DNA of 64,000 nucleotides from Xestospongia bergquistia (Eukaryota > Porifera > Demospongiae > Haplosclerida > Petrosiidae). Below, piece after piece: positions 342-64,000 of this stretch; the first letter of the stretch is position 1, and each line of letters starts with the position of its first letter. Under the pieces are notes generated by a model that was given only the letters and a program-made list of their open reading frames with translations, was not told the origin of the DNA and did not search any database. The translations under genes were made by a program, and so were the position numbers. The DNA lies in contig OZ014412.1 of assembly GCA_963965975.1 (NCBI GenBank), forward strand, positions 870,501 to 934,500, in the 5' to 3' direction.

Positions 342-3300
342 TCAGAAAACAATATCTCCTTTCTTTCCTGTGTCCTCAGCTGGTTGACCTGCATCTTCAT
401 CTTTTACAATTACAACATTATTATCACCTGTTGTAACAGGATTCTCTGATTTATCACCACCAATAGCTTCAGCACACTCTAATTCTGGATTCTACAGATA
501 GACATAAAGAAGCTGGTTACTGAGCAATAGCTAACAATTTATATATTATTTACATTATTTAATGTAGTTGATACTCCACAAACACATGAGATGTTGTAAT
601 GATAATTGAAATATAACTGGTTACATAATTAATAACAAAGTTTAAAGCAATTGTAATGGTAATGGTAATTGGGTAATTAATTATGTAATTAATTTGGAAT
701 TTTTTGGCTCTAATGGTAATTGTAATGCTATAATTGGGTAATTGTTTCATGGTTTGGTGAAATTAATGGTAATGGGTAAGGGCAATGAGGTAACCATTAA
801 GTAATAGTAATTGTAAATCATTACATGATAAAGTAATTAACAACATCCCTACATTAGCTGATAAAGGATGAGGACAAATGACCACATGTTACTTACAGTA
901 GATGATACATTATCATTTTGAGATTCTCTTTCACTCTAAAAAAATAATAGTATAAAATATAATTATAATATTATTATATAATTTGTGATGTACTTTAGCT
1001 GCTCTTGTTTCTCTTTGTTCTGGATGACTAGATACAACATACGATGACTGACTACCAGCAAGATCTGTAGTGGTGGCAGTTTCTGGTACACTATAATCAT
1101 GGCTCTACATTATAATAAACAATAAAGACAGAGAGTGTGTATACCACATTTACTGGTGCTGTTGTATCTTCTTCAATATAAGTAAATGATGTTATAGTTG
1201 TTTCATTGGGTAACTGAGTGGAAACTTGCGAGGAGTCCTATCAAAATAATATTTTACAACATTAGATTGAAATATTATTGAAAAGAACTTTCATTTGCTA
1301 AAAGTGTTACCATATTTTCTTGTTCATCAGGAGCTGCACTAGATTTTGATGTTACTAATTGAGAAGTAGCATTAAGGTTTGTTGTTCCATTGGAATATGA
1401 TGCTCTCTATGTAATTAATATAAGATATTCATTGAAGAGATTAAAAAAACTAACTAGAATCACAGGTTCAGCATCATCATTACTACTACCAGTCTCTAAA
1501 GTCTGAAAAAACTCAATTGTAATAATAATAATAATGTTAAAATGTTTTACTTGATGATCGCTGTTCTGTTGTGATGATTGGATCAAAAATAATTCTAATA
1601 CTTCATTATATTTGATTAATAAAACATACCTGATTAATAGGTATACTATTGTCTTGGTTGTGGTATTGTATAGTAGATGATGGAGGTGGTACTATCACCT
1701 ATAATTCAAAGATGATGTCACCATGATGTCATAAATGATCTTACAATGCTACGAGAAACACGATCATCTTCAGGTTGATGTATTTCTGAACTAGATGATA
1801 CAAGGACAAACACATATATTATAGAGGCACATAGATTGATAGATATTAAAGAAAAAGTTTAAAAAAGCATAAAGTATAATAAGATACATAATAATAATAA
1901 CAGACTATATACTAGATATATGTCTGACTCATGATTGTGTGTGTCTGCTTCATAACTGATATAGTCTACATTGTTATTAGATAATTCATTATTATTATGA
2001 ATTCTATATTGATGTAAAGTAGATAATTGAAGTAATAGTAGATAAGATACACTAACGCTTCTAATGTAGTCATTTCAACTCCACTTTCAAGATTCTCATT
2101 TTCACTTTCTTGTTCACCTCTCTCTTGATTTAATGTTCCCTCAGTTGACCTAATAATTAATAGATATAATGTCTTATGATCTGTGATCATATACCAATTT
2201 TGATTAAGGACACACACATATATTATAGAGGCACATAGATAGATAGATATTAAAGAGTGTGTGCATAAAGTATAATAAGATACATAATAATAACAATAAT
2301 AATTTAACAATAATAAACTACCTTGGTTCTGTTGTAGATGTGAGACTTGAAAACATAACAGGTGGTAAGTTGCTCTCTGCTAATACATGTAGTGTCATTT
2401 TATTACCTTTGAACTTACTTTTACTTTTTCGCTTATTTTTTAATTTAACTGCTATACAGGGAATTGAAGCACCAAGTATAACTATTATAGCAGTAATAAC
2501 TACTATAGGAGTAACAATTATAATTGTCTTGTTGGATTTTGAGTGAATCTCTGCAATAATCTTTTAAATATATTCATTATTAAAGTTATTTACCAATTGG
2601 TAAAGGACTAATGGAATGAGATAGAGACATCAAACTTGGAAATGATGACATCATCCTACAACTGGTACCTATCACAGTTATTGTCATCTGTGAGATAATG
2701 TGGTTATAATCAATGGAGGTGTTTTTAAAGACAATTTTGACAGTATATTCTCCAGGACATAATTTATGTATGACTCCACAAGCAATATGAGTGGTTGTGT
2801 TCTGATGAACAAATGAAGGCACGTTATCAGTGGAGTTAGTAGCCATTATTCCACAACCCCATAGTGTAGAGTGTGGAAGGAAATGACATTGATATCGCAT
2901 ACCATTAGTAATAGGATATACATTGAAGGACTTTATCTGAGATGTATCTATATAATATCAGAAAATGACATGCATATAGTTATTTGTGGTACTTACTAAA
3001 ATATTTGAGAAATTTCATTGGTGATAAGTTTAAATTAGACCAAATGAAATGAGCTGAACACTTAAACTGATCAAGAGGACACAAAAGATGTAGTCCTTCA
3101 TTTATTATAATACTTCCATTATTAGTTACAGTAATATTATAATCACTGTAATTAGAGTAATGTTCACATGTTATATTAACAGATAAATGAGTAGGATATG
3201 ATGGAATACAATCAACATTAATAACCTGTATATAGAGGATAGGATCAATTTAATTAGAATAAAGACTACTAACTTGTGCTCTAAAAATAACAATAGCATT

Positions 3301-5571
3301 ATGTGGATTATCAGGATCAACTTCAATATGATAATCTGTTAATATTACTTGTGGAACTAAAGATATAATCAATCACAGGATGTGACATAGTTATATTTAC
3401 TTAATGAAGTATTATAATAGTACGTTATCTCATTTCCTGTACTAGCTCCATTAGTAGCTGATATAGTTACTGTATATATTTCATTAGATATAATGATATC
3501 ACTTAATAGATAATATATACTAGTACTAGTAGTGATGTTAGTAATGTTAAGTTCTAATATAGTAATAGTATAATAGAGTATAGGACAACCAGGTAGACTT
3601 GGAGGAGGTAACCATGTCAACAGAACACCTGTACAATTTAATGTACTATTTAGAATGACTGGACCAGGAGGACCTATATTAACATGAATTATAATAATGT
3701 ACATAAATTATATTATGCATCCAAAAGTTTCATAGTATAAACGCTCAAATTTGAATTATTAGCTGAGTAAATTTTCATACACACAAAGCATGTTAATTCT
3801 CAAACTTGATTTCTATTGAATAGAAATCGAAGACTTTTATGTATTCAAATATGCCAACTCCACAAACAAATATGAGATACAAGTATTTAGATGAAGAGTG
3901 ACTTTAAAAAGTAGAGATAGATAGCAAAAATAGTAGTCATAGATCTGATAAGGTCATGACTGTTTTTACTTAAAATGGCTTTAGGATTTCAATGATCCTA
4001 AGTAATTGTCTCTGACAATATTAAATAACAGAGAGTCTATCAACATGTTTGATGTAACCACGTCAACAAGTTTGTAATTTTGTTGTTCATTATTTTGTTT
4101 GTTATAAAGTATTAATGAGTAATTTTGTACATAATGTGTACAAAAATTTTCTAATGTCAAATATTTCTAGATCTAAGGTAATGTAGTATAGTTTATAGTA
4201 CTAACCTTGTACTAATAATGTGAAGTTATTTGAACAATCAGGTAATTTTTGACTAGTCCTTGGTCTGATCAGAACTTGAATTATGCTGTCATTATAGCTT
4301 AGAGTGACATTAATAGTTAAAGTCACATTACAAATGTCCTCAAATTCAATGATGTTCTTCATTGGAGTTATGTATTGTTGACTATTGTGATGATACACAT
4401 TTAATGCATAATCATTAATGAGTTCATTACAATGACTTAGTCCCATGACAGAAAATGTGAATGATGTACTTCCTCCACAAGATGTGGTATTAGATATATG
4501 ACTGATCCTGTCTGAAACATTTGAACAAACTAGAGTATGAACAAAATATAATAATAGAGGAGAATACCATATTATACAATATGCATTTAAATTTTAAATA
4601 TTTTTCTTTCCTACATATATTAATTAGGGAAATTGTTGTAACTTCAATTTATTCATTTTCAGTTAAATTTTAAATTTTACTAAGTTTCTCATTGTTTTCT
4701 TTTAGCTCCTTTATTATCTCATCAACTGTATCGTATATAATAGTATCAAGGATTACAGTAGACACCCATTCATTTAATGCAAGAAGGGGCATCTGGTGAC
4801 TTTAGTCTAATATCTTGACATTGTGACAACATAATACATTAATAACGACATAATAATGGATCTCATTTGAAGTGATCTACTCCAGATAATGCAAAAAAGT
4901 AGTTACTGTCTAAAACTTGTCATAGTTTCAAGGACTACCTTCAAATGAACTGTTTTTTTATTCTTAATATCATATCTTTATTTTCTATAGTTTATTGTTA
5001 ATAATTTGCACTAATAGTTTTGAGCATTGTGATTATTACTCAAAAATTAATGGTTTAAATGCCAAGAAATAGAACTAAAGTCACCAATGGCCCTTTCTCA
5101 CATTAAGTAAGTGAGCGTCTGGGGGATGAGACAGTAATTCACATCCTCCATTAATATTATTAAACAAAAACTTCTGATGAATCACTATAGACCAAATAGT
5201 AAGTTCTAACTACATCACAAATTTTCTAAATTTGCAAATAAGGACTGTGTCAGTATAAATAAATTTATTTTATCTACTAGCTTTATTTTCAAACATTAGA
5301 TGTATTTGATAATGTCTTTGTGGTACTACATGATCTGATATATTAACATATACCAACCATCTCTTCTCATTAAGTATTGATATTGTTACTTTTATTCTCT
5401 GTGATGACACTGATATTATTATCAGACATAAGGTCTTATCATTTTTTAGTTTCAATTCCAGAGAATATAAAATATGTTCTATTTAATTTATTCAAATGTT
5501 AATATGATAATATACTTACAATGATAAGGAGATATTAGAAACAGTAAGAAGGCGACAACATTCCAACTCAT
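342..5571 (-). CDS. Receptor B1: Ig-like/FN3 type I membrane protein with a long multi-exon tail
   Basis: Sixteen exons read on the minus strand: 5520-5571, 4206-4529, 3401-3673, 3274-3356, 2997-3225, 2594-2947, 2322-2550, 2057-2149, 1745-1790, 1630-1698, 1455-1502, 1311-1406, 1145-1237, 994-1104, 897-935, 342-491. They join in frame to 762 codons. Residues 1-17 (MSWNVVAFLLFLISPYH) are a signal peptide; 18-125 a cysteine-bearing Ig-like domain; 126-216 FN3; 217-320 a third domain; 321-438 the membrane-proximal C-x-F...G-C domain; about 447-470 the transmembrane helix followed by a Lys/Arg stop-transfer. The tail (about 250 residues) is acidic and Ser/Thr-rich with PPPSS and IQYHNQ (YxN, YxxQ). 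Most tail exons are phase 0 and a multiple of three. It is head-to-head with A1. Seen: frame and splice continuity. Known: the domain types. Inferred: a surface receptor. The ligand is unknown. Confidence 0.8.
492..896 (-). repeat. B1 intron with degenerate TAATGG/TAATTG simple repeat
   Basis: The 405-bp intron between the last two B1 tail exons holds imperfect runs of TAATGG, TAATTG and ATTAAT (about 600-800). The 63-codon minus-strand reading frame here consists almost wholly of Ile, Thr, Asn and Tyr, as expected from repeat translation, and is not a gene. Confidence 0.6.
5278..5392 (-). repeat. A-family exon fragment inserted in B1 intron 1
   Basis: About 115 bp nearly identical to part of the A-family third-domain exon (compare 6945-7065), reversed relative to the A genes and therefore in the sense direction of the B1 transcript. 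The matching B2 intron (around 15480) reads straight across without it, so it looks like a recent insertion. A possible acceptor (ATCACAG) precedes it in the B1 direction. Whether it is ever spliced in cannot be told. Confidence 0.7.
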
Positions 5572-5681: not shown

Positions 5682-8265
5682 ATGGCTCCTGTACTTGCTA
5701 CAATATACTGCTTTCTCTACATAGCAATGTCTTGGCAATTTACAGAAGCTGCTCTTGCAGGTACACATTATATATTTTATTATTGCAATAAGAGAACTGA
5801 ATATTTTGCTGCAGAATTTGTTGAAAAACCAACTTCAGTTAATACTACTCAAGGCTCCATAGCAGAATTCAATTGTACTGGATATTCTCAAGGATTTCAT
5901 TGGGTGATTAATAATAGACTATCAGATCATGATGATAATTCACATCGTGGTTTAGAAGAGATTAATGAAGTAGTAAATTCTGCTACTAATTTAAATATAC
6001 ATATTTTGCAAGTACCAGCAGAACCAAAAAACAATGGAGTTAACATAACATGTGTAATTTATAATTTTCTGAATGTTCCCAGTGATCTTGTTTACTTACA
6101 CATTCAAGGTATGTTTATTTAATACAATGTAACGATTTGTTTATTTAACATAATGTAATAATTTTCATTATCAGTTTGAAAGTTGATATTTACTTTGATT
6201 TAGAATAAAAACAACATAATTTCAATCCACAGTTTATTTCCCAAACTACCATCACATTATATTATACATAGCTATCATAACATGTACATATTTGGTAAAT
6301 GTTTACTATCCTATAGGTTTATTGAGTGAGGTAACTGATGTTCATTTAACTCAAGTCAACAGTACTACTGTACAGTTATCATATAATTCTCCTCCTACTT
6401 TAATGGGTGTCCCTATATTAAACTATTCTATTGAATTATTCTCAACATCTAATAACTTAACATCAGTGATATATTGGACAACAGAGGAGACAATACTAGT
6501 GACAATAAATAATCATTGTATTAACTATTCACTACAAATATCAGCTTGGAACAATGTAGGTAAAGGGAATATTACTACATTACCACTGATACTATATCAA
6601 GGTTAGTATTAGTTATAAGTAGTTGGATGTGGTAATTTAGGAAAATTACCTCTTCTCTTTCATAATATTATTTACTAGTCCCCGTAAGTCCTCCTCTTAA
6701 CACTACTGTCAAGTTTATATCTGATAATAACTATATTGATGTGTCTGTAGAGAGTATAGTAAGTATTAACTAGTATACTATATATTACATTAAATTAATA
6801 ATATATTAACTTTGAACTATTTATCTTAAACTGTTTAGATTAGTGCTAGCTGTGTTGGAAGGGTTCCAGATAATGTCACAATATCACTGGTTTCAGTGTA
6901 TACAACAACATGTCAGTTAGCTATTAATGGTATTGATTGTAATGAAGTAACAATATCAATACTCAATGAGAAGAGATGGTTGGTACATGTTAATATATCA
7001 GATCATGTAGTACCACAAAGACATTATCAAATACATCTAATGTTTGTAAATAAAGCTGGTATAACACCAATGTCAACAACAATGATCAGTGAGTGAGACA
7101 TTTAATAGATTATTTTTAATTGTTTATTTTATTAGGTACATTTCAAACACAGAGAGCTAAAATTGAATATAGTAATAATTATGTATGTATTAATTGTTAT
7201 TTTGCTGAAGGGTCAACATCATCTGGTTGTCATGGTATCTTTGTTGATATCCATGAAGTATTACATAACCAAACATTTACTGTACCAAGAAGCAAAAGAG
7301 CTCCTATTTTTGGACGTAATTGTGAGGTGTTGTTATCAGGAGAATATCGTGTACTGATCTTTGATAGAGATAAGAGTGGTCATATCGAAAATGAAATTGC
7401 ATTAAAACTGAGTGCTATTGTAAGCCATCAACTAGAAACTACAACAATCAAGACATTATCTTCTTTTATTGGTAAGTAGTTGTATTATCACTTTATATGT
7501 TAGTAATGTTGTTATTATATTGATGCTGAGTCATTGTTATTGTTCCCTTAACAGATACTAGTACATCTTCTCAGTTAATAACACCTTTTGTCACTACAAC
7601 AATAGAACCTTCTGGTCAAAGTAGTACTAATGATATATCTTTATTACTTATTATATTATTTGTTACTGGAGGAGTGCTATTATTAACAAGTATTATTGTT
7701 ATATCATTAGTGGGTTGTTTAATACGTACTAAGAAAAAGAACAAGAGATTAATAATATGTAAGAACAATAACTTATCAAAGTCCATTTTGTTTGACATCA
7801 TAGATTAATTGTTAACCATAAATTGTCTTTTTGACAACCCTCCATATAAATACATGTACATATATATCATCTCCATAATATATCACTTGTGTTTGTAAAG
7901 TCAAAACAAATGAAATTCAAATGGATGGATGAAATGTATGAATAGATATATGGATGGTTCTACAAGTAGATATTCTAATAGACATACACAGTCAGTTAAT
8001 GTATTAAGTATATTTTATTCTTTATTTTAATAATCCAGCTGTTTGGACAGCTCATGAGCGCCAGAGACACACAGAATTGTTCCTGTATACATTAACAGAT
8101 GATGTACCACCTCCACTACCTCCTAGGACTCCTCCCACACAACAGACACCAGATCCAATGTATGACAATATGGAGGAGATCCAGTTTAGAGCTACTAACA
8201 GACAGGCTGTAGCACTTCAAGAGTGTCCAGCTTATACTAAATTACCACTACAATCAACAAAATAA
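5682..8265 (+). CDS. Receptor A1: Ig/FN3 receptor with CD28-like tail motifs
   Basis: Eight exons: 5682-5760, 5815-6108, 6317-6601, 6679-6758, 6839-7088, 7136-7471, 7555-7758, 8039-8265; 584 residues, every junction in frame. Signal peptide 1-26; Ig domain 27-124 (FNC, W, then NGVNITC); FN3 125-219; third domain 220-329; membrane-proximal domain 330-441 with C-Y-F-A-E-G-S-T-S-S-G-C; transmembrane about 469-497 followed by RTKKKNKR. The tail has PPPLPPRTPP (SH3-type), MYDNM at about 550-554 (both YxN and YxxM) and AYTKL at 574-578. The first intron is only 54 bp and open in frame, so its removal is uncertain; a paralogue (A3) has a longer intron there. Likely a signalling surface receptor; partner unknown. 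Confidence 0.85.
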
Positions 8266-8760: not shown

Positions 8761-8770
8761 GTATATATGT

Positions 8771-9250
8771 TACACTGGCCTTGTACTAATAATGTGAAAT
8801 TATTTGAACAGTAATTAACACTTCCAACACTAAGTGTCTGATAAGAATTTGAACTAAACTATCATTATAAGATAATTTGACATTATAGATAGTTAATATG
8901 ACGACACAGAAATTAGCAATATTGCTTACAGGATCCTCCACAGGATCACTTCAATTTTGTATTCATATGGTCCACAAGGATGTAGTCCAGTGATATTAAA
9001 AGTGAATTTAAGAGAAGATCCTTCACAAGATGTGATATCTGGCAAATAACTGATCTGATCTGAGGAATCTGGACAAACTGAGAGAAGATTATTATAGATC
9101 TACTTACGGTGACTATTAATTGTTATTTTTCATGTGTATATTCGTGGAGTCCGTATTACAATACATAATGAACTTCCTGAACAATACACTTACTTTTTTA
9201 AACAAGGAGATCAAAGAGAGAGTATAAAAGCGACAACGAATCAGCAGAAG
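8771..9250 (-). pseudogene. Decayed B-family 5' end (Ig-like and signal exons)
   Basis: The segment 8771-9082 aligns by eye with the Ig-like exon of B4 (59085-59411), and 9189-9250 with its signal-peptide exon. The Ig-like part has lost about 40 bp and the start codon is gone. No FN3 or later exon follows on this strand. It forms a broken head-to-head pair with the A remnant next to it, like the living B1/A1 and B2/A2 pairs. Confidence 0.75.
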
Positions 9251-9722
9251 CTAATCTTGTAGGTATATTCTGGATGTATGATAAAGCTAGATCATTTTTA
9301 TATAGAGTTTGTTAAAAAAAACAGCTTCTGAAAATGCTAGTCAAGGATTAAAAGCTCAATTGTATTTGTTCAATTGTATTGGATACTTGTAATGTTTTCA
9401 TTGGTTGGTGAATAATAAACAGCAATGGATAATTTGCATTATGGTTTTAAAAAAATATAAAGCTCTAAATCTTGTTAATAAATTAAAAATAAATCTTTTT
9501 AGCCAGCTGAGCTAAAAAACAACAGAATTACAACATAATATGTTTTATCAATACAATTAACACACCAGTGATGTTGTTTACCTCTATGTTCAAGCTATGT
9601 TTACTGAATATGAATATTTGAGACATGATATTTCATTAATGGAACTGACCCATATAGGTTTATTGAGTGAGGTAACTGATGTTCATTTAACTCAAGTTAA
9701 CAGTACTACTGTACAGTTATTA
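9238..9722 (+). pseudogene. Decayed A-family 5' end (signal, Ig, start of FN3)
   Basis: The end of the A signal exon (AGAAGCTAATCTTGTAG) is near 9248-9264; a worn Ig exon with several deletions spans about 9300-9590; and the first ~65 bp of the FN3 exon, still almost identical to A1, lie at 9657-9722. Homology then stops abruptly. The FN3 piece is far better preserved than the Ig piece, which suggests later gene conversion or a separate event. Confidence 0.75.
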
Positions 9723-10187
9723 TAGTATATATTTATTACTTGAGAAGGGAATGGTGACTGATATTCATACTATGCAAAAGTCTCATTAAATATAATTTTA
9801 TAATAAATTAATGCTACAATAATACGATCAAAGTTGCTTAACTATAGTCACAGTATTTAAACTATTAACTATAAGAGTAGTCAATAACTCAAGACACATA
9901 TTCAACTGTTAAATACAACTTGTACAAACTATGAAGAAAAAAAAATATTGTAATTAGTTCATGGCTCCACAAAAAATTCTGTATTATTTGGTCTAAAACA
10001 ATTATTAATTATTAACACCATAAACATCATGAACAGGAGTCACAAATAGTCCAAGTAGAAAATTGTATAATATTAAAAGACAGTAACTACTTGTCTAGTC
10101 TCTTCATTTTATTACTATCAAAACAATTTATAATAATTCCATACAACTATTAATTATAATTATCTATGAATATAGTATTATAGTAAG
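9723..10187. other. Intergenic, nothing recognised
   Basis: AT-rich, no reading frame with gene-like composition and no match to the receptor exons. Confidence 0.5.
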
Positions 10188-12752
10188 TTAATGCTTTAGT
10201 AAAGGACCGTCAGATGCAGTTTGTTCAGAACTAACAACTGAAGATTTGGTGTCTATTCCAACTAGTTCTTCTCTTGGAATATCAAGTGGTAACTGGTGTC
10301 CAGGAGGAACAACTAGACCTCCACTCTCATTTGTGTCTTGATCAGCTGGGGGGACATCTTGATAAGCATGACTACCCTATGATGTTATGTGTAAACATTA
10401 TATTTGCAATTCATAAGTTCATATATATATACGTACTTCGCTAGTATTTGATTCTGCCATTAGCTGCTTTTCCTCTTCATTATAAAGTCGTGGTGATGAT
10501 AATGTTGTAATTATCTTGCTACTGCAAGCAAAAAGGGTTAATAATTTCTTCATTATTACTAGTACATACAGGAGAGACACTGCAGATTCTCTTCTTGTCA
10601 TTCCTGCCTCTATTGCATCTTTCCTGAATAATTAAAAAGAACAAGTAGCATTACTTGAAATGTTGTGTTCACACTTACTGAAAAATAGCTTGTGATGGAA
10701 TTACCTAAAAAGGACAACATTTAAATATCATTTTATATGAATTACTTGATTTTACCATTTTCTCAGTTTCTCCTTCCTCTGAAATTGCTTCAGTTGGTTT
10801 TTGAAATTGCTTACTTTCATTCTCAATTGATATTGTACCAGTTTGTGCATTATTTTGAGATACTGATATATTACTTGCTTCTTCTGCTGTTTCAACTCTT
10901 TCCTTCTGTTTCAACTCTTTTCTAATTTTATAATAAGAAACATAGTTAGAACCAACAGTATAACAATATACAAATTAATTTAAAAATATCAGTGTTATTT
11001 ATAATTAAACACAGGTGTACATTATTTCCCTACTTTGGTTTGTTAGACTCTGTATAATTAGTAATACAAGGTTGATTTTCTTCAACTTCAATCCCCTATA
11101 AACAATATAGCATGTATGTAATTGTTTGGTACCACATTGTCTACCTTGTCTAAATCCATAATTGTTTCATGACCAATTTTCAATCTTTTCATTTCTTTTA
11201 TTTTCAATGATTGCATAGTCTCCCGGGCTTTGGTTATAAATAAATGATATTGGTCAAGTGGGAAAGTACAGGTCACAGTAATGGAGTTGCCTTCTCTAAT
11301 GCTCTTTATGGTGATCTTCTTATTCAATCCTTCTGGAAAGATACGAGACATTACATTTATGATATCTTTTAATGTGCAGTTGTCAGGGTCCCAATCAAGG
11401 ACAACAGTAATGGTCTCATCTTTAAGAGAAGGAGGAGATGTTGTTACTGAAAGTGTTTCCCCTAGACATTGACGAACAGACACAGATTGACAAAACTCAT
11501 CTACAGTTTTCTTGTATAATTCAATATATTCTTGAGCTTCTTCTATATTTAATTGCATTACCACTGCCTCTAGATAATTGACATCAAGTATTGTACACTT
11601 GTCTTGGACAATATTCAACATATCACTTATAGTTTTACAATGAGCTAATGAAGGCCTTAGAGTAGCATCATGTTCTTCCAAAATCTTTCTCATATCTTCA
11701 AACGAAGGTGGGTCATTTTCAATTATTCTTCTGATGGTGTTAAAAATCTTTATAAACTTATTTCTAATATCAGAAGTTGTATTTTTAGGTAGACCTATAA
11801 TTAATGTAAATAGACAAATTAATAAAGTGATAGTTATAAAATACTAATATTACACAAGATAATGATGACATTTTATACCTTTGTTGATATAAGAATTGAT
11901 GTTGTCTGTTCCAAATGTTCTTCTAACTGTAAATGTAATTCACATGTGAAATAATAGATTCATAGTTAATACTAACCATAGTCATTGAAGATGGCATTAG
12001 CAATGGGTACATTTTCAGTGAACCTCTTTAGTATACTAGAAAACAATGCCAGGTTATGATGATTGATATGAACAGCACTACGTATAGCTTTTAAGAAGAC
12101 TGTTCTTCTCTCAGAGTCAGACTGTCCACTGTTAATATTTGTCATATCTGATAGCACCTCCTCCTGAAAAAGAATTTGTGCCACATCAATAGGATGATGA
12201 AAATCTTGGGATAAAGCCTCATAGTGACAGCGTAGAATATCACTTGCTATATCTTCAGGACTACTCATCTGATGACCTGGTGCTGCCTCTTCAAAAACTG
12301 TTTCCAAATCATTAGGAAAACTTTGAGCTGAACAAATGAGTTTTTATTCTTGCTATAAAATTATTATCTATTTCTTACCATACATATTAAGTATACTATT
12401 TCCTATTGATGTCATCTCCTTAAACTTGGTCAATACTATACCTAATACTTGCAATATCTTGGGGTCTAAAGACACTTCTGTATTTACTGCAGACATCAAA
12501 GTTGTCTTCTTCTCATCTAAAGTGCCTTCTAATGTCTCTATCTCATCAAGGATTGTTTCACTGATACATCTCCGACTAAATAAGATCTGAGACACTTGGA
12601 CGAATAGAGACTGGGACAATTCATTAATATGTTGCTCTGTAAGACAAAAATATACGTATTTCATCTGATATTTAAATTCACATACTAAATATCTCAAGAA
12701 TTTCATCTTCAGGTGTCGAAACATTTTGTTGTCTATATATAGAGAGAAGCAT
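10188..12752 (-). CDS. Cytosolic protein with two death-fold (CARD-like) domains
   Basis: Eleven exons: 12686-12752, 12379-12636, 11977-12327, 11879-11926, 11145-11794, 11034-11095, 10756-10921, 10679-10704, 10570-10623, 10437-10521, 10188-10376; 651 residues in frame. Residues about 22-108 and 115-225 are two related helical domains (pattern: Leu-rich helices, then a FL.AI...V block and an F..IL..F block) that I read as CARD/DED-like. Residues about 242-458 match a conserved region I have seen beside death domains in sponge and cnidarian proteins (EGNSITVTCTFP motif); this is recollection, not a search. The rest is acidic and Ser/Thr-rich with PPADQD and VVPPGHQLPLDIP. There is no signal peptide or membrane segment. 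The ATG chosen has an in-frame stop just upstream. It lies directly after the truncated receptor B2 and may be a detached receptor tail. Confidence 0.75.
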
Positions 12753-12959
12753 TAATCTATATCAATAGTAAACATAAGGATTTGGTTGGACATGTAATAT
12801 TATATAATGTTATTATACTTTAGCTAACCCCTATGTTCTAAATGCTAAACTGTAGACATAATATACATTGACAAGTATATAAAAGTTTAAATTATAGTAT
12901 ATACACAATAGGTCACGCCCACTTTATGTCAGGACCACACCTCATTTTGTTATTCTACT
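12753..12959. promoter_or_regulatory. Presumed promoter of the death-fold gene at the B2 break
   Basis: About 200 bp between the death-fold gene start and the last B2 homology. It contains GGTCACGCCCACTTTATG at about 12912-12929. B2-family similarity stops near 12970, so this is also the rearrangement boundary. Promoter function is inferred from position only. Confidence 0.35.
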
Positions 12960-15644: not shown

Positions 15645-15748
15645 TTTTTGTAGGAGGCGAGGCTATATGAAATTATCAGACACACCCATCCTGTATTCAT
15701 AAACTGAATACGTAATAGAGAATATATTTTGTTGACCAGAAGATTGAA
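15645..15748. promoter_or_regulatory. Divergent promoter between B2 and A2
   Basis: 104 bp between the two start codons, collinear with the B1/A1 interval, including the CACACCC core near 15679. There is no clear TATA box here (CATAAAC instead). Inferred from arrangement. Confidence 0.5.
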
Positions 15749-18851: not shown

Positions 18852-22737
<3,886 letters not shown>

Positions 22738-43374: not shown

Positions 43375-43535
43375 TGGACCAAACAACCAAGAAGTAACGT
43401 ATCTAATTATGAATGAAACTGGAGAGCGTTGTTATCAGGAGATTATCAGGTACTGTTGGTCAAATTAAAAGTGAAATAGTAAGTGCTTTTGTAAGCCACA
43501 CACTTGAAACTACAAAGATCAAACAAAGCACATGT
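43375..43535 (+). pseudogene. A-family membrane-proximal exon remnant
   Basis: Contains TTGTTATCAGGAGA and a GTAAGCCACACACTTGAAAC block matching the A exon end (compare 7334-7345 and 7420-7440). It lies head-to-head with B3, where a partner A gene would be expected. Confidence 0.6.
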
Positions 43536-47860: not shown

Positions 47861-49071
47861 CTTGCCATTAATTTAGGTCACGTGAATGACTATACGACTA
47901 CGTATAGCATCAGGGTGACGCCAAACCCTAACATATAGCACGGCTACGCCCACTAAACTATTCGGATGACCTGATCTGTTATCTTTAAATTATATATCCT
48001 GTTGTGTAACAAACTTCTTTTTAAAATAGTTTACAATTAGGATATCTATACTTACAATTAACAATTTTAACTATACATAAGCAAACAGATAAAATAATAC
48101 CACATTTTTTGTTACTAGACTAAATTCATTTTATGAATTTGAATATAGTATTTCCAATTAAAATAGTTTATTCTTTGATATATGTGCATAACAACTGTAT
48201 TTTGCCACTATACATAGATGTAGATAATATTAAGTTTGACTTTCTTTTAAACTGCTAGAATCCAATTTATCTGAAGGCTGCACTTAATTAATCTGAGGAT
48301 AAATCATTATAATAATATATATTAAGTGGATAATTAACAATATATGCATGTGTGTATTATAGATAAACTCCTTTTAGCAATTGGAAAACATACAAAGCTA
48401 TATTGTTTAACTTTTTATCAAAAATGTACTCAAGATTTTGCAGCAGGCATTAATTATTATCTTGGATTTACTGTTCAGTCATGCATTTGTGTAAGTATTG
48501 TGAATCATAACTTTGTAGTGTTCGTTGTAGACTATAGTCTAAAATGAATGCTTAAAAGGTTTATAGAAATTTAAGAAGCTATGTAAGGGTGAAAAAATGT
48601 GTACAGTAATAGATACAAACATCCAGAAGTATTTAAACACTCAATTATATATAGTATAATTCAATCAAACTCTCTGCATACATAAATATATTAGTCATAT
48701 TATGTAATTCATCATAATCAATAAAATCAAATGCAAAAATCATTCTCTAAGTTTCTTTTAAGGTGATAGTGATGACTACAAAATACTAGGGTTTGCTATG
48801 ATGAGGTTGGACCTAGAGACTTTCAAAAAACTGTGAAGGTGTTAATTAGCAGTTATTGAGTTATAAATTAATTTAATATATTCATAACAACATTTTCAGT
48901 TCTCAAAGGATCAACTATAAATATTATTATGTTCATTGGACATTTAGTACACGATAAAAAATCATATTATATGGCAAACACATGAATTTAACAAACTATC
49001 TAGATGTATAATTAACTATTTTCTACTCAATGTATTTTTTTATCATTGTGAGAATACATCAAACTACATAC
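47861..49071. other. Intergenic between D2 and D3
   Basis: The first ~110 bp upstream of D2 are less AT-rich (GCGATCGCCTCG near the start, then ACGCCAAACCCT and GGCTACGCCCACT) and probably hold its promoter. The rest shows nothing. Confidence 0.45.
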
Positions 49072-51098: not shown

Positions 51099-52022
51099 AT
51101 TTTGCATATTTGTGCAAACACGCCCTTCATCGTCTATAGCTGTAACAAAACAGAATGTCCACGCCCGAAACGACCGGAAGTCAAATTCCCTCCCCTCGGA
51201 GCGTTACCACTCCCCAATCCATGATAAAAAGAGTAGGACATGTCGGCTTTAAAAGTTACTTTTAAAGTACCCCATCAATTTTGAGTCCATAAAAATATAG
51301 AATTTTGATGTCGAATTTATACTGTTACGTAATGTATGGTTTTTGCATATCAAGCTCAAAAGCCCTAGAAATAGCAATTTATTATATATATTATGAATTT
51401 TTTATGCAAGAGGTATTCAATAGCGTAATACTATTCTGATGAATTCAATACTAATACACTATAATGGATTGATATAGTTTTTAAGTGATGTTTCAGTGAT
51501 TGAGCAGATTTAGAGTATTTGATGTGGTGAGGTCAAGAAATCCAGAAAGAACACCCTCTCCTGCATGATAGTCATAGTCTTAGTGTCTATTAGATCACCA
51601 AGGAGCATAGATTTCTTCCTCATGACACTGATATTATGGGTGTAAACATTCTGATATGGTTTGACCATTGATTGGCTTTAAATCAACAGGTAGAAGGAAT
51701 CATAAGAAGTGTGATAAAGCAGAACAACCTCACCATCTTATAAAGTACTTATCAATATAAAAAAGTAACGAAACTCCAGACTCAAGATTAATATTCTAAA
51801 ACTTATATATTAGAATTTGAAATTTATCAAATGACCTTTTTTTGTTGACATAACCAAATCTATTTTGGTTGGCTCCTATGCAACAGAGCAAACTAAGCTT
51901 ACAAAAAAACTCTGACCTATGAATTTATAATTATTTGCTTATAACATTGCTTTGAGTGTTTGAGGTGAACTTCAAGGTTAATGTCAAGCACAAATATATG
52001 ATCATATCTTTTTATTAATATA
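51099..52022. other. Intergenic between D3 and D4
   Basis: The D3 upstream side includes a GC-richer stretch (51120-51240). A 39-codon frame on the minus strand near 51510-51625 (MRKKSMLLGDLIDTKTM) is too short to support as a gene. Confidence 0.4.
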
Positions 52023-54286
52023 TTAATTATAATATGGTATTTCTTCATAGTCAGCCTGTACATTATTGGGTTGTATTGTTATATATGATGGATTATTTTC
52101 TACCTCAACTCTTCTAATCTCAAATATGTGAACTGTGTAATAAGTATTAAATAATTCACAAGTCCACTATCAGTAATAAAATCATACCTTCCTCATATGC
52201 AGGATTACGAGTGATAGCTTGTTCATCAACTAAAATAACTTAGCTATACGTATCAACTCATTCTTCCCTCTTACCTTCACCTTCATGTTGCTGATTTCTT
52301 TTTTTCCTCATATACACAGATACAACAACTATTATAGCAACAATTGCTGCTACACAAAACACAATAACTACATTTGTAATTGCAACAAGGGCAACTAAGA
52401 AATGAAATAGATGCTATATTGATGTTTCAAAACACTTACTTGGTATTCCATTTATAGGTTTATAAAGTTCTATTGTACTAGTTATACTATTATAAACTTT
52501 CTTGTGTGATGCACTGTCTATTGAAAGAAATAGTTATTGTCTATAATACAATTAATTACATCAAGACATCATTTAGTTTACCATGGGACATTCCAATGGT
52601 AGGTTCTATAAATGTCATCATACTAGTTATACTATTGATGTCACTAATTGGAGAGACTTCCTGCTTACTTGAAGTATTGCTACCTAACAATACATTAGAT
52701 ATATTAATAATTTATTATACTACTTACTAGTAATCTCAGTAGGAGAAGGTAATATTAAGATATATTCCAGTACCTGAGGGTACACAACAGATGGGTTAGT
52801 TATAATAGTACCATCTATTATATCATGAGCTGTCACAGTATAGTTACCACTAACTGGTAGACTTATATACTGGTATACTGTACTCTCCTCTATACTGGAT
52901 TTACTCATATTAATAGACTTCACAGTTCCTTTAGAAGACTCTCTAAATATCACATGACATCCATCAGCAGTAGATCTCTCAGCAAACCTACACTCTATAA
53001 CAACTGATCCATTATCAGAGTAGTACTGTAGAGTAAGTCCTTGAACATGATAGGTTGCTATAAGCATGAAAGTTAACATAAATTAGTAATAACATACTCA
53101 CTAAAATAAGACTGATCCTTTGTTTTAGAGTTATTAAAATAATCCAATATATCAGCTATAAAGATATAATTCAGTTGAGGACCAATACTTGATACAGTAT
53201 AATTAACTGTCACTGACTGACAATCTTCTAAAGGGCATACGATGTCATTGTGTGTGTGCTCTATTACTGTTCCATTCAGGAGTGAATTCTCTTTTGTAAT
53301 GCCCAACAATGTGCAGTTACAAAGTTTAGGAATCCCTACAATCTGCATACAAAGTAACAAAATATGATATATACTGCAATCTTACAATGACATGGAATTG
53401 GATATTAAAGAAATTGCTATGTTTATCGAAGATGATACCATAATCAGATGAAATTATAACTTGGTTTTCTGTGGAAATTTATCTAACCAAAAAATGGATA
53501 AGCATTATATACTTTCATTATATTCATCTTTAATGGTAATATTGTTAGAACTATATTCTCCACTATGAGCAATAACAGTAGCAGTGTAAATATCACAAAC
53601 TGTGAGGTTATATAACTCATAAGATGTACCATTAGTGATATCATTATATAGTAACTGGCCATGTTGGTTCTCTATATACATGTAATATGATATTGGATTG
53701 TTCTCAGAAGAAAATAATGGAGGAGACCATGTCAACCAGCTTAAAGAACCATTATGATTAAAAGTGAAATGAACATATTCTACTGATGTGATACCTGCCA
53801 ACATAACACTGACATTTGAGAGTATAGAATAGCTAACCTTTGACTGTTAAAGTAGCTCCTTTTGATACATGATCAAAGTTTTGACCAATCACAGCGCATC
53901 CAACACTTATTCCATCATTAATAGGTAATGCTCTTATAGTTAGTACTGATGACCACACACCAACTGATATGCTGCTGGTAGTTACTAATATCTCTCTGTA
54001 CTCTTTAATGGCATCAGTAAGTGAATTACCCTCTACTGTCCAATGCAGTTTACTACCTGTACCCTGGCAGGTAAAGTTCACTAGGTTATGAAGTGTTGTG
54101 TTCACAGATGATGGAGCTACTGTGATCAGAGCTGTAACACAAAAACAAATATTTTATTTTTTATGTATATCCACATTGACAATTATAATGATAACTTTAA
54201 ACACACACTGACTTACCAGCTCCATTCACAAACCAAGGTGTAGTAATAATTAGCACTAAAATGTTTCTGAGGATGACTTTGGCCAT
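52023..54286 (-). CDS. Receptor D4: Ig/FN3 receptor with NPxY and YEEI tail motifs
   Basis: Exons 54217-54286, 53838-54131, 53513-53794, 53386-53468, 53102-53342, 52728-53057, 52582-52683, 52440-52517, 52275-52394, 52188-52229, 52023-52132; 583 residues in frame, apparently intact. Signal peptide 1-23; Ig 24-121; FN3 122-215; third domain 216-323; membrane-proximal domain 324-433; a two-exon Ser/Thr stalk in which SIT-S and IEP/IEL blocks recur, so one stalk exon may be a duplicate of the other; transmembrane about 495-520. The 50-residue tail has NPAYEEV, NPSYITI and ADYEEIPYY: two NPxY (PTB-type) sites and a YEEI, the preferred Src-family SH2 site. Upstream of D3 in the same direction. Confidence 0.82.
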
Positions 54287-56816: not shown

Positions 56817-59524
56817 TTAATCGTCCTGTGGTCCAATTTCTTCATGTTGGGCACCTTCTTCAGAGTCTATATTCTCCACTTGTAATGTTGACAAACAGAT
56901 GACAGTATCTACATCATTATATTTATCATTATACAATTACCTTTTCCTTACCCTTTCGCGTTATTTTAGTGCGTTTATGTTGCAATATTGTTTCCTTTAC
57001 ATAGACAAATGATGCTTCAAATCTGTTTACATTAGTGGTACAGAAGTACATGCATAAATATAATTACCTTTTTACAATTGCAGATTCATGTCTTGAGGAT
57101 TGATCCTACAATAATAATAAAAATGTGGCCATATATGAATATTATATATAACTTTTACTTTTTGAGGCAGAAGTTCTATTTCCTCTTCTTTTTCTTTTTT
57201 GCTAGTCGAAAAAAAAAGATTCTAATTGCTTATAACAATTGATAAATTGTATACATATTGAGTTGACAACATAAACTAGCTCATAACTTAATCTACCTTA
57301 GTTCATTAGCACTATCTTGACCTACTTCATCTTCAATGTCATGTGCTGCAGTAACACTAAAAAACAAAGCATCGAGTCATATTTATGTGAACAACACAAG
57401 CATGGTAATTCTCTATACCATACCTTAGTTCATATTCTTCTTGTAAGGACTGAAAATTGGATGATGGAACTTCTTGAATTCATTTAAGAGTTATTTCATA
57501 ATTTGCTAATTCACAAACACTTACTTTTTCGCTTCATTCTCTTTCTGCAGATGATAGCAATCAAAATTATACCAACAAATCCAACAATAATTACTAATGT
57601 GCAAGGGACTACTATAGCAATAATTAGTGTGTTTTCATATCTCGATGTTGAGTTGATACCTGTAATAATTAGTGAATAGTTTCATTATTAGATTTAGTTA
57701 CCAGCTATTGAAGGACTTATAGAAAGAGTTGGAAACTTTGAATTTAAACTTGAAGATGATAAAATTGTCCAACAGTTGGTACCATTCACAGTTATTGTTG
57801 TCCTTAAGGTAATGTGGTTGTAATCAAAGAATGTTTTATTACAGGAGATAAGTACAACGATGGTATATTCTCCTGGAGATATGTTAAGTAAATCATTATT
57901 AGCAATATGAGTTGTTATGTTCTGAGGAGCAGAAGAAGTGACATTGTTAGTGGACTTAATAGCTATTATTGAACAGCCCCATAGTGTAGAGTGTGGAAGG
58001 AAACAACATTGATATCTGATACCATTAGTAATAGGAGTTATGTCAACTGTTTGTATCTGATATGTGTCTAAATACAGAGTATTGATATATAAGTTATATA
58101 GTAATAACTTACTAAAATTATCAATTATTGTTATATTTGGTGACAAGTTCAAATTAGACCAGATGAAATGAGCTGAACAATTAAATTGATCAAGAGGACA
58201 CACAAGATGTACTCCTTCATTTATTGTAATACTTCCATTATTAGTTACAGTAATATTATAATCACTGTAATTAGAGTAATGTTCACATGTTATATTAACA
58301 GATAAATGAGTAGGATATGATGGAGTACAATCAACATTAATAACCTGTATATAGAGGATAGGATTAATTTAATTAGAATAAAGACCACTAACTTGTGCTC
58401 TAAAGATAACAACACCATTATGTGGATTATCAGGATCAACTTCAATATGATAATGTGTTAATATTACCTGTGGAACTAAGGACAGTATTAATGATATAGT
58501 ATATAGTGATATTACCTAATGAAGTATTGAAATAGTACATTGTCTCATTTCCAATACTAGCTCCATTAGTAGCTGATATAGTTACTGTGTATATCTCATT
58601 AGATATAATAACATCACTTAATAGATAATATATACTAGTACTAGTAGTGATGTTAGTAATGTTAAGTTCTAATATAGTAATAGTATAATAGAGTATAGGA
58701 CAACCAGGTAGACTTGGAGGAGGTAACCATGTCAACAGAACACCTGTACAATTTAATGTACTAGTTATAATGACTGGATAAGGAGGACCTATATGAATAT
58801 TATTAATATTCTGTCATTTCGTTGTTGATTTAAATTACTAAAGATATCATATATAGTATATATGTAAGAACATGCAGAAACATACTTCAAGAAAAATGTG
58901 TGAATTATTTTTATAGAAATAGCTCTAAACATAGTCTTGTTGAATTTCTTCATAACACACTCACTTTTCACACTCAAAATAGCAAAACATAGGCAAAATG
59001 TTACAATTATTCTTAATTTATTAAGCCACACTTAATGTTTATATGTGTGTGTGTGTGTTAGTGTGTTTGCTATATAACACTGACCTTGTACTAATAATGT
59101 GAAATTATTCGAACAGTAATCAATTTTTCCACCACTAAGTGCTCTGATAAGAATTTGAACTAAACTATCATTATAAGATAATTTGACATTGTTGATAGTT
59201 AATGTGACAACACAGACATTGGAAATATTGTACAGAGGACCCTCTACAGGATCTAGATCTTGCTGACTGTCATGATGATACACTTCAATTTTATATTCAT
59301 ATGGTCCACAAGGATGTAGTCCAGTGATATTAAAAGTTAATTTGAGAGAAGATCCTTCACAAGATGTGATATCTGGCAAATAACTGATCTGATAAGAGGA
59401 ATCTGAACAAACTGAGAAGTATATAAATTTGATTAGTATTAGTATTAGCATACTTAAAAATAAACTTACTACTTAGACAAGGAGATACAAGAGAGAATAA
59501 GAGAGCGATAGCCAACCAGTACAT
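56817..59524 (-). CDS. Receptor B4: Ig-like/FN3 receptor with a basic/acidic multi-exon tail
   Basis: Thirteen exons: 59470-59524, 59085-59411, 58516-58788, 58393-58475, 58113-58344, 57702-58067, 57525-57659, 57424-57472, 57297-57356, 57159-57201, 57068-57105, 56952-57022, 56817-56908; 607 residues, all junctions in frame, apparently intact. Signal 1-18 (MYWLAIALLFSLVSPCLS); Ig-like 19-127; FN3 128-218; third domain 219-323; membrane-proximal domain 324-445 with C-C-F-L-P-H-S-T-L-W-G-C; transmembrane about 455-482, then RKRMKRK. The tail is about 117 residues with EEYEL, EEEIELLPQ (compare EEEELLPH in B3) and a basic stretch; the death-fold domain of B3 is absent. Its expected head-to-head partner A4 lacks its first two exons. 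Confidence 0.82.
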
Positions 59525-60368: not shown

Positions 60369-62396
60369 GTTTATTGAGTGAAGTAACTAATGTTCATTTA
60401 ACTCAAGTCAACAGTACTACTGTACAGTTATCATATAGTTCTCCTCCTACTTTAATGGGTGTCCCCATATTAAACTATTCTATTGAACTGTTCTCATCAT
60501 CTAATAACTTAACATCAGAGATATATTGGACAACAGAGGAGACAATACTAGTGACATTAAAAAATCCTTGTATTAACTATTCACTACAAATATCAGCTTG
60601 GAACAATGTAGGTAAAGGGAATATTACTACATTACCACTGATACTATATCAAGGTTAGTAAGTAGGTGGATGTGGTAATTTAGGGAAATTACCTCTTCTC
60701 TTTCATCTTATTAATTACTAGTCCCCACACCTCCTCCCTCTACTCTTAACACTACTGTCAGGTTTATATCTGATAATAACTATATCGATGTGTCTGTAGA
60801 GAGTATAGCAAGTATATTAACTAGTATATTATATATTACATTAAATTAATACTGTATTAATATTGAACTAGTGATCTTAAACTGTTTAGATTAGTACTGA
60901 CTGTGTGGGAAGGGTTCCAGATAATGTCACAATATTACTGGTTCCAATCTATATAGTAACATGTCAGCTAACTATTAATGGTAGTGATTGTAATGAAGTA
61001 ACAATAACAATACTTAATGAGAAGAGATGGTTGATACATGTTAATATATCAGATCATGTAGTACCACAAAGACATTATCAAATACATCTAATGTTTGTAA
61101 ATAAAGCTGGTATAACACCAATGTCAACAACAATGATCAGTGAGTGAGATATTTAATAGATTATTTTTAATTGTTTATTTTATTAGGTACATTTCAAACA
61201 CAGAGAGCTACAATTGAATATAGTAATGATTATGTATGTATTAATTGTTATTTTGCTGAAGGGTCAACATCATCTGGTTGTCATGGTATCTTTGTTGATA
61301 TCCATGAAGTATTACATAATCAAACATTTACTGTACCAAGAAGTGACACACCTCCTAATTTTGGACGTAACTGTGAGGTGTTGTTATCAGGAGAATATCT
61401 TGTACTGATCTTTGATATAAATGAGAGTGGTCATATTGAAAGTGGAATAGCATTAAAACTGAGTGCTATTGTAAGCCATCAACTAGAAACCATAACAATA
61501 AAAACTTTATCTTCTATTAGTAAGTAATTGTATTATCACTCTGTATGTTAGTAGTGTTGTTATTATATTGATGCTGAGTCATTGTTATTGTTCCCTCAAC
61601 AGATACTAGTACATCTTCTCAGTTAATAACACCTGTTATCACTGCAACAATAGAACCTTCTGGTCAAAGTAGTACTAATGATATATCTTTATTACTTATT
61701 ATATTATTTGTTACTGGAGGAGTACTATTATTAACAAGTATTATTGTTATATCATTAGTGGGTTGTTTAATACATACTAAGAAAAAGAACAAGAGATTAA
61801 AAATATGTAAGAACAATAATAATACTAAACTTCATTTGGTTTGACTTTAAAGATTAATCATTAACTATAAATTTCACTACTGCTTTCTCTTGTTCCTGCA
61901 GTTATTATAATAGTAGTATTGATGAAGTGATTGCTATTTTATTTTTAATCCTCCATTTAAATATATTTGACATCACACTCGATTTTAACCTTAACTTGAC
62001 AACCCTCTATATAAATAAATGTGTATCATTTCTCATAATAAGTTACTTGTTTGCAAAGTCAAACCAAATGAACTTCAAATGGATGAATGGATGGATGGTT
62101 AAGTGATTGGACAATTTAACATATTATTGATGAGATTATGTATATTTTATTCTCTGTTTAATAATCCAGCTGTTTGGACAGCTCATGAGCGCCAGAGACA
62201 CACAGACTTGTTCCTGTATACATTAACAGATGGTGCACCACCTCCATTACCTCCTAGGACTCCTCCCACACAACAGATACCAGATCCAATGTATGACAAT
62301 ATGGAGGAGATCCAGTCTAGAGCTACTAATAGACAGGCTCTAGAACTTCAAGAGTGTCCAGCTTATACTAAATTACTACTACAATCAACAAAATAA
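60369..62396 (+). pseudogene. Receptor A4: A-family gene lacking its signal and Ig exons
   Basis: Exons 60369-60653, 60722-60807, 60890-61139, 61187-61519, 61603-61806, 62170-62396 correspond to A1 exons 3-8 and remain open, including the transmembrane helix, PPPLPPR, MYDNM and AYTKL. The fourth-exon donor is GCAAGT instead of GTAAGT, which would be a GC-AG intron. With no start, signal peptide or Ig domain upstream, it cannot make a surface receptor unless an unrecognised first exon exists. The intact frame suggests the loss is recent, or that conversion keeps refreshing it. Confidence 0.7.
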
Positions 62397-63011
62397 TATA
62401 GATATATCTACTGTAATGACATTACATAATATAATATTGTATATAGCATATTGTGAACTTTCTTGATGTCAAAATACTTGTTGTTTTCAGCAATATTAAT
62501 TGTAGTAGAGTCTATGTTCTTTGCATGGTTGATTTAGGGTGTGGTCATATCATAACCACATGAATTCAGTACAATTGCATAATATCAGTTCTTTAAAATC
62601 TAAACTGTCAGTAACATCTACTTGTTTTCGAGAAGAACAACAAATACAGAGTGTATAGTCTTGTCAAAGATTGCCTGTAATGTAGTCCATATAACATCAA
62701 TATTATTTGTTACCATATGATACCACATTAAAAGCTTTATTTGTTAATGTATAATATATATATATTTAATGTACTGAGAATTATTAGCAGATTATCATAG
62801 TAGATTTTAGAGCATGGTACTGAATAATTTAAAATGTTAGGACAAATAGAATTAAAAAATAGTATCTAATAACATCGTGTTACTATAAAACAAATACACT
62901 GCAGCAATTTCATACTACATGATCTATTTATATCCATTATAATATATATACATTATACTATATTAACACTAGTATTAGGAGTCACTAATAAAGTACCAGT
63001 GACAGTAGTAA
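62397..63011. other. Tail-to-tail interval between A4 and C3
   Basis: Homologous to 18232-18851. No gene seen. Confidence 0.55.
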
Positions 63012-64000
63012 TTAAATGGTAGAGGGGTCCTTCTCATCAGAGACAGACTGATTTGTCTTATCACAAGGATTATTAATGGGAATTGACTATAATGAGATGA
63101 TATCAAGTCAAGTGTTGTTTATATATATCTTACCTTATTAGGTATAGTTAGAGGCACAGATGTAACTTGAGGTGGTACAATTTCACTAGATGACTAAATA
63201 TTTATTCGTTACTAACTTCTAATTTCTATAGTATTAATTACCTGATTATTATTAGATCCTTCTTCTACACCTATTGATTGGTAGCTTAATACAGTATCAT
63301 CTACTGTTGGCTTTCCAGATTGGGCATCATTATTTCCAAACTAGAAAGAAGAATAATGCATTTCGTCATAACTCTCTCTCTATATATATATTATTACTTG
63401 TACTTGTATTGGTTCTACTTCACTGATATTGACAGAAGGAGATGTTAGTCTTCCAGTAATCTCTTCATCATCGGATGCCTGTTTGTTAGTATCTGATGTC
63501 TTGTTAGTTTTAGCTGGTATAGGTGGTGGTATATCATCATCTTGTACATTAACTGGTATAGGAGGTGGTATATCATCATCTTGTACATTAGCTGGTATAG
63601 GAGGTGGTATATCATCATCTTGTACATTAGCTGGTATAGGAGGTGGTATATCATCATCTTGTACATTAGCTGGTATAGGAGGTGGTATATCATCATCTTG
63701 TACATTAGCTGGTATTATAGTAACACTAGGTATTGATGGCTCTATATCATCATAAAATGGAGGATGTTGTTCTGTTTTTGATGGAAAATGAAGTATATCA
63801 GTATATACCACTTTATCACTAGATGGGGGAGGAGCTTGAGGACGCTTTTTAGAAAATTTCTGAAGATCTTGATAAACAACTTTCTGTGGTTAAAATAAAA
63901 TAAAATATGTTCTTGTATATTTCAGCATTACCGGTTCATCATGAAGTAATGTTGTACTTTCAGAATAATCAGAAGTAACAGTAGAGATGGCAGTAGAGTT
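63012..64000 (-). CDS. Receptor C3, 3' part only (runs off the window)
   Basis: Exons present: 63932 to beyond 64000, 63398-63883, 63242-63340, 63134-63193, 63012-63086, all phase 0 and open. They encode the C-type tail: VVYQDL, VVYTDI, FYDDIE, five PANVQDDDIPPPI units, LSYQSI, and a C-terminus QSVSDEKDPSTI identical in its last residues to C1. One tail exon is 60 bp where C1 has 183, so a block between PVTSV-type sequence and the donor is missing. Membrane and ectodomain exons lie outside the window. Tail-to-tail with A4. Confidence 0.82.
63516..63710 (-). repeat. 39-bp coding minisatellite, 5 units (C3)
   Basis: Five in-frame 39-bp units, nearly identical to each other, encoding PANVQDDDIPPPI (one unit with PVNVQ). 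Confidence 0.9.

Follow-up and report, generated by a model that had tools for sequence, protein, structure and literature searches.

A clustered sponge receptor gene family with a common exon structure and mosaic divergence, a candidate for immune-type recognition

Receptors of the KIR/LILR type combine similar ectodomains with different tails in tandem clusters that include chimeras and truncated members, and the same features are found in an array of receptor genes on a 64,000-nucleotide stretch of the Xestospongia bergquistia genome (contig OZ014412.1, here contig C2, positions 870501-934500; the whole stretch is called the window). The domain make-up differs from that of KIR/LILR, and the signalling of the tails is seen here as sequence motifs, with no inhibitory/activating pair implied. 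The Alr cluster of the early-branching animal Hydractinia symbiolongicarpus likewise comprises many clustered immunoglobulin superfamily (IgSF) receptor-like genes, 41 according to the available excerpt of its description (PMC11999971); compared with Alr by description rather than by sequence, the present genes differ in having FN3 and FN3-like membrane-proximal domains, in an outer domain that is not recognisable as Ig in one family (B), and in being many more. In the mammalian CEACAM genes, concerted evolution by gene conversion has been described, with the Ig-domain exons of one member escaping and a different transmembrane (TM) exon being co-opted (PMC7042247, in the part accessible), whereas here the block that appears to be homogenised differs between subfamilies and, in the C genes, is as small as one exon. 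A search of openly licensed PubMed Central papers yielded no description of such a family, which may be described elsewhere.

To our knowledge, it is still unsettled which receptors mediate graft rejection and microbe discrimination in sponges, and the cluster represents a concrete candidate set for these processes; apart from function, it would be a clean natural case of gene conversion and domain shuffling shaping receptor repertoires. The array is probably a clustered family of type I receptors of single origin, diversified by birth-and-death and mosaic evolution and employed in immune-type recognition. The common gene structure, the clustering, the decay, the domain-wise divergence and one chimera are observed directly, and the structural part of this explanation is well supported; the recognition function is the part that is proposed by analogy.

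Gene structure, pairing and clustering

The window (~30% guanine and cytosine) was read throughout, open frames were clustered, and genes were modelled with a splice-aware predictor written for this analysis, with the exon boundaries then adjusted by hand. The family names A, B, C, D and R are those of this analysis. In families A, B and C, the exons follow the order signal, outer domain, FN3, ~80 bp, ~230-250 bp, membrane-proximal, TM and tail, and the set of intron phases 1-1-1-0-1-1 is complete in all three families. The ectodomain comprises four domains, namely the outer domain, FN3, a third domain split by the phase-0 intron, and a predicted FN3-like membrane-proximal domain. A1 and A2 are open throughout, with exons of 79/294/285/80 or 86/250/336 or 333/204/227 bp and intron phases 1-1-1-0-1-1-1. 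Past the outer exon, the exon lengths are 273/83/229/354 or 348 bp in B1 and B3, 273/83/232 bp in B5 (where the edges of the membrane-proximal exon are not clean) and 261-282/83/232-241/330-342 bp in genes C1, C3 and C4, with the same intron phases in all of these A, B and C genes. Among 70 loci (10 inside the window and 60 outside), the three-exon core of phases and lengths is present in 45, compared with none of the 70 opposite strands; 25 loci without a clean exon core contributed no exons to the comparisons. An initial annotation of the window had attributed one exon order and phase set to four families, which holds for A, B and C; for D, the full pattern is not established because the sole copy modelled, D1, is decayed, with its FN3 and membrane-proximal exons split by the predictor, as expected of such a copy.

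Receptor genes, their remnants and associated features (window coordinates, strand):
342-5571, minus: B1, receptor gene, head-to-head with A1; TM at 2536-2437
5682-8265, plus: A1, intact 8-exon receptor gene (signal peptide, Ig-like, FN3, split third domain, predicted FN3-like membrane-proximal domain, TM, tail)
8766-9083, minus: decayed outer-domain exon of B type (83.6% to B5)
9239-9724, plus: decayed A copy, remnants of the Ig and FN3 exons; still head-to-head with the B remnant
12900-15646, minus: B2 ectodomain, head-to-head with A2; shortened membrane-proximal exon
15749-18231, plus: A2, intact receptor gene
18852-22737, minus: B3, chimera, B-type through exon 5, followed by a D-type membrane-proximal exon, TM and tail
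20695-20906: AG dinucleotide repeat of 212 bp between the membrane-proximal and TM exons of B3
23100-25060: spacer region between B3 and A3, without a self-match of at least 250 bp in the window; may hold a mobile-element fragment
25096-27639, plus: A3, receptor gene; TM exon with a 1-bp deletion
28100-31847, minus: D1, degenerate D-type gene (read 31847-28100) with a repeat-bearing tail
32854-35927, minus: gene C1, receptor gene
37603-37981, minus: decayed C copy, 79.7% to C4
37984-38369, plus: decayed A copy, end of the membrane-proximal exon and tail exon
38422-39590, minus: decayed D copy; the A remnant meets it tail-to-tail
40100-43042, minus: B4, B-type, partly resolved; FN3 frame disturbed, TM at 41469-41376, tail uncertain, signal exon placed by eye
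43299-43523, plus: decayed A copy, head-to-head with B4
43993-44596, minus: decayed C copy, placed by similarity
45682-47868, minus: gene C2, receptor gene with a short tail; partly resolved, model less certain
49080-51107, minus: gene C3, receptor gene with a short tail, its end placed by eye
52023-54286, minus: C4, intact receptor gene; tail with NPAY and NPSY
52728-53057, minus: membrane-proximal exon of C4, the near-identical island common to the C genes; predicted FN3-like fold
56817-59524, minus: B5, receptor gene; TM at 57636-57531
60369-62396, plus: A4, A gene lacking the signal and Ig exons
63000-64000, minus: D-type tail of a gene that extends past the window edge, tail-to-tail with A4

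In the window, the A genes are on the plus strand and the B, C and D genes on the minus strand. The start codons of head-to-head neighbours are separated by 110 bp in A1/B1, ~104 bp in A2/B2 (the B2 start was placed by eye) and ~2.36 kb in A3/B3, and D-type tails are met tail-to-tail by A2 (the tail of B3), A3 (D1), A4 (the D gene leaving the window) and the A remnant at 38 kb. Outside the window, on contig C2, a B outer exon faces an A signal exon ~230 bp away at 842 kb, a head-to-head B and A are separated by 2.9 kb at 851-854 kb, and a weak match (E 0.004) places an A-like signal exon opposite B at 835 kb, probably a further pair. Thus, where the initial annotation had A genes head-to-head with B or C and tail-to-tail with C, A1-A3 do face B genes and A2-A4 meet tails of the D type, and the 'C' of that annotation cannot be matched to one family named here; its claim that decayed copies keep the pairing was verified by similarity for the remnants at 8.8-9.7, 37.6-39.6 and 43.3-43.5 kb. 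The head-to-head arrangement behind its label 'paired' is confirmed, both in the window and beyond it, but adds little and was rejected as special evidence: according to the available part of PMC4773876, a promoter shared by head-to-head neighbours is possible for 18,054 genes (45%) of Amphimedon, so that, if the present genome is of that kind, pairing says little about joint function.

In the genome searched (146.46 Mb, 21 contigs), at least 97 membrane-proximal exons of C type and at least 42 of R were found, and 136 of these 139 are on contig C2; with 150 candidates scored, the counts for A, R and C are lower bounds. The C-type exons (97 near-full-length among 127 matches, six with stops; 94 on contig C2) are concentrated at contig C2:0.90-1.42 Mb (53, of which 51 on the minus strand) and 2.10-2.43 Mb (35), with 9 elsewhere. 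The 53 matches to the A membrane-proximal query consist of 42 R, 6 A and 5 C-type exons; the R exons, distant relatives of that of A, are at contig C2:2.81-4.03 Mb (40 on the plus strand), and the close A copies, at least six, are all at contig C2:844-932 kb. B is represented by 9 copies, 8 of them within contig C2:834-942 kb, plus a partial copy and a faint match on contig C1. Dispersed single-copy homologues, named in the initial annotation as an outcome that would speak against it, were not seen genome-wide, the matches being clustered. FN3 exons also recur every ~450 bp on the minus strand of contig C5 (~326-337 kb, G000), apparently as a separate FN3 family.

Mosaic divergence and common origin

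L009, L011, L012, L039, L064, L077 and L084, seven loci duplicating genes of the window, were removed from the profile and later comparisons, stop-containing exons were excluded from the protein and dN/dS (nonsynonymous to synonymous divergence) sets, and the FN3 exon of gene C1 was taken 9 bp longer in exon comparisons than in the predictor's version. The B genes of the window are 92-98% identical in exons 3-5 and 96-100% in introns 3 and 4 (intron 3 is 100% identical among four of the five genes and 70% against B1), compared with 51-65% in the outer exon 2 (89% for B1/B2) and 70-79% in the membrane-proximal exon (43-48% against the chimera B3). From exon 3 onward, the A genes are 86-100% identical, with the exception of intron 7 (75-97%); in the outer exon, A1 and A2 are 93% identical to each other and 73-74% to A3. 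Among the four window C genes, the membrane-proximal exon is 92-95% identical and the introns flanking it 41-67%, with 74-81% in the outer exon, 74-84% in the outer and FN3 exons and 55-74% in the third-domain exons. Across 30 loci, identity within this C island (0.91-0.99) drops to ~0.5-0.65 at both splice sites. The tails of C1-C4 are only 42-49% identical, with long gaps, so that related ectodomains carry different tails, as in paired receptors.

Synonymous divergence is also uneven within the same genes. Median dS is 0.49 in A exon 2 versus 0.02 in exon 3, 0.77 in B exon 2 versus 0.07 in exon 3, and 0.97 in C exon 5 versus 0.11 in the membrane-proximal exon, that is, some contrasts exceed 10-fold in A and B and the contrast is ~9-fold in C. 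In C, the two third-domain exons co-vary (rho 0.82), compared with 0.01, 0.16 and 0.05 across domain boundaries; the halves of single C exons correlate at 0.76 in exon 3 and 0.84 in exon 5, and at 0.20 in the outer and -0.04 in the membrane-proximal exon, so that the exon 3/exon 4 boundary, the only one with strong signal on both sides, carries the argument for uncoupling. The outer exon of R shows no coupling with FN3 (-0.02), with the halves of each of these two exons themselves uncorrelated. The chimera B3 is of B type through exon 5 (96-100%) and of D type from the membrane-proximal exon (87-97%), the change of type falling within the 62-bp intron 21595-21534 or at its end. Recombination is a reasonably supported source of the near-identical islands, and each subfamily appears to homogenise a different block, which in C shrinks to a single exon with edges at the splice sites.

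Profile comparison with hhalign links the membrane-proximal domains of A and C (91%), A and R (96%), C and R (90%), R and D (88%) and B and D (69%), and 11 cross-domain controls all remain below 2%. The FN3 exons are linked more weakly (A-B 70%, A-R 43%, B-C 25%), and the only cross-family link of outer domains is A-C, at 95%; B matches only B3, which is itself a B gene there. The 'D' profile consists of B3, so that B-D agreement outside the membrane-proximal domain is meaningless. In the third domain, the position of the phase-0 intron and similar exon sizes are kept across A, B, C and R. Together, the membrane-proximal homology (for B, via the D type), the partly related FN3 exons and the matching phase-0 intron position support descent from one ancestral gene, parts of which appear to be heavily diverged or replaced. 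The single ancestor claimed in the initial annotation is thus retained on the strength of the membrane-proximal domain and the phase-0 intron; the outer domain, the third domain and the A and C FN3 exons do not provide the links, so that parts may have separate origins or have been replaced. Birth-and-death, the process invoked there, is visible in graded duplicates, truncations and remnants, but is incomplete as an account because the exon-by-exon divergence and the B3 chimera suggest that paralogues have also recombined.

Domains, tails and competing explanations

The Pfam FN3 model scores above its cut-off of 25 bits in A1 (26.2) and gene C1 (27.3) and below it in B1 (22.6), C4 (20.7) and B3 (17.9); for the membrane-proximal domain, an FN3-like fold is predicted. 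The label 'Ig-like' appears reasonable for the A and C outer domains because Cys-Trp-Cys is invariant across 7 A/C sequences and the A and C domains are mutually homologous. Pfam gave an Ig_3 match among the outer exons for C4 only (E 0.43), and the best PDB match of the A/C outer profile was to Roundabout (6.8e-6 over 25 residues), the remainder, with many Ig chains, being at 0.04 or above. For the B outer domain, which is not recognisable as Ig by sequence, an Ig fold is a weak guess and was rejected as proven; a PDB search with this domain gave nothing useful.

The tails were examined in 6 A, 30 C, 24 R and 10 B loci. A tails contain MYDNM, with PPPLPPRTP in addition in A1, C tails contain NPxY and YENI, and one type of R tail contains YENV. 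Where a TM segment was found, the motif Y[DE]N[IVML] is present in 5/5 A, 10/26 C, 4/18 R and 0/6 B tails, compared with shuffle expectations of 0.01, 0.30, 0.25 and 0.03, respectively, members of the same family not being independent. YxN suits Grb2-type SH2 domains, NPxY suits PTB domains, and PxxP suits SH3 domains. At least 5 of 18 R tails have a Death-like domain, a minimum given the 1.5-kb limit with which loci were extracted. The Death-like exon is near the end of the R models L016, L017, L019 (partial), L020, L028, L033 and L038, mostly after a tyrosine-rich exon; in its place, a YENV-type tail is present in other R genes. PDB searches with an R Death-like tail and with a Death-like repeat gave nothing useful. 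Tyrosine-kinase tails were considered and set aside as improbable: among the 129 of 1201 candidates scored, none of the 5 kinase matches listed for contig C2 is within 0.8-4.1 Mb. The D-type tails carry 39-bp (13-amino acid) in-frame proline-rich tandem repeats, DDDIPPPIPANVQ-like:
19486-19806: 8.2 copies
28788-29071: 7.3 copies
63510-63715: 5.3 copies

A scenario that would connect these observations starts from a single ancestral gene with a four-domain ectodomain. The family would have grown by tandem duplication of minus/plus two-gene units, with continual loss of members, and paralogues would have recombined, by unequal crossing-over and gene conversion, in blocks delimited by the phase-1 introns that separate domains. 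In each family, one block would stay near-identical while the other domains diverge and swap, and different tails would join similar ectodomains. The outer domains may bind ligands on other cells or microbes; the tails of A, C and part of R would signal via tyrosine phosphorylation and SH2 or SH3 adaptors, and another part of R via the Death-like domain, like immune-type receptors.

Several observations weigh against this scenario. The gene models are predictions; membrane-proximal hhalign values are ~1% for B-A and B-C and 14% for B-R, the FN3 exons of A show no link to those of C (<1%), outer-domain homology is demonstrable only between A and C, and hhalign detects no cross-family similarity of the third domain. 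The C loci outside the window are the best matches of the membrane-proximal search, which favours similarity in that exon, but the four window C genes, not chosen by this search, agree with the island. The halves of the C outer and membrane-proximal exons show no clear correlation even internally, and R exons 3-4 (0.39) and exon 5 with the membrane-proximal exon (0.35) still co-vary significantly. Median dN/dS is below 1 everywhere (0.35-0.97), and pervasive positive selection was rejected on this ground; the highest values are those of the R outer exon (0.97, near 1, with dN > dS in 70/153 pairs) and A exon 5 (0.96, from ten pairs with hardly any divergence). In C, divergence is greatest in the third domain rather than in the outer domain. 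B tails lack the Y[DE]N motif, and the R Death domain is below the Pfam cut-off in one tail (16.9 versus 22.6 bits), with no Death match at E <=1 in a second.

The lack of third-domain similarity between families would also be compatible with their independent assembly from shuffled Ig and FN3 modules of class 1-1, a class that dominates animal extracellular proteins in the accessible text of PMC8001218, the gene structure then being convergent. Such assembly is very improbable, given the same phase-0 intron and similar third-domain exon lengths in A, B, C and R, the membrane-proximal homology and the adjacency of the families in one cluster. Because the edges of the C island coincide with both splice sites, strong nucleotide-level selection (on splicing or an overlapping element) might be invoked instead of gene conversion; this is improbable, as in B and R the same exon has diverged freely (median dS 0.49 and 0.30, respectively) and the islands are elsewhere in other families.

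FN3 and Ig-like ectodomains with tyrosine or proline-rich tails are frequent in adhesion receptors, which, along with the median dN/dS below 1, would fit lineage-expanded adhesion or guidance receptors without an immune role, the domain-wise identity being a by-product of recombination in a tandem array. Given the high turnover, the truncated and broken copies and the diverse tails, including Death-like ones, all unlike typical conserved adhesion genes, this appears unlikely. Clustered receptors, diverse domains, rapid turnover and the functional analogy with Alr, as far as the excerpt of PMC11999971 goes, would suit an allorecognition locus proper, highly polymorphic between individuals and with products that discriminate self from non-self tissue, in line with the role that the initial annotation called plausible, but more than 140 matches on several stretches exceed the need of a single locus, and microbe sensing fits equally, which leaves this identification unlikely. 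A still bolder and quite improbable possibility is that the array is a domain-shuffling machine in which the near-identical block serves as a homology anchor and exchange at phase-1 introns, in the germ line or somatically, yields new combinations for sponge allorecognition or symbiont discrimination; if true, it would be an invertebrate diversity generator. Mosaic evolution of a clustered receptor family with a putative immune-type function thus remains the preferred explanation.

The B2 locus and a neighbouring gene family

Next to the B2 ectodomain is a fragment of a gene of another kind:
10188-12636, minus: helical-repeat gene fragment adjoining the truncated B2; contains a 216-amino acid exon at 11794-11145

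In the first gene model, this fragment provided B2 with a TRADD-N/Death-like tail, which was rejected because no TM segment was found between the two and the membrane-proximal exon is cut short. The FN3 exon of B2 is 272 bp long versus 273 bp, which breaks the frame, and a TM segment sought for B2 was not found; B2 is read as a truncated gene with a piece of a different gene family next to it. A TRADD-N domain sought in the neighbouring family had no match in Pfam or PDB. In Amphimedon, a TRADD-N/Death-like expansion is described for 357 proteins (PMC8195603, excerpt), and the architecture and copy number of the family adjoining B2 fit that description; unlike the receptors, this family is intracellular. 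Its resemblance to the Amphimedon family, the ~30% guanine and cytosine of the window and the short introns are the features that pointed to a sponge. The 216-amino acid exon (11145-11794, minus) has at least 150 matches in the genome, itself included, many of them on contig C4. Death-like or helical units are upstream of this exon in the models L070 and L072-L074, and in L074 a caspase domain is downstream of it (Pfam E 2.8e-17). A decayed relative of the same family lies just outside the window, at contig C2:869438-870009.

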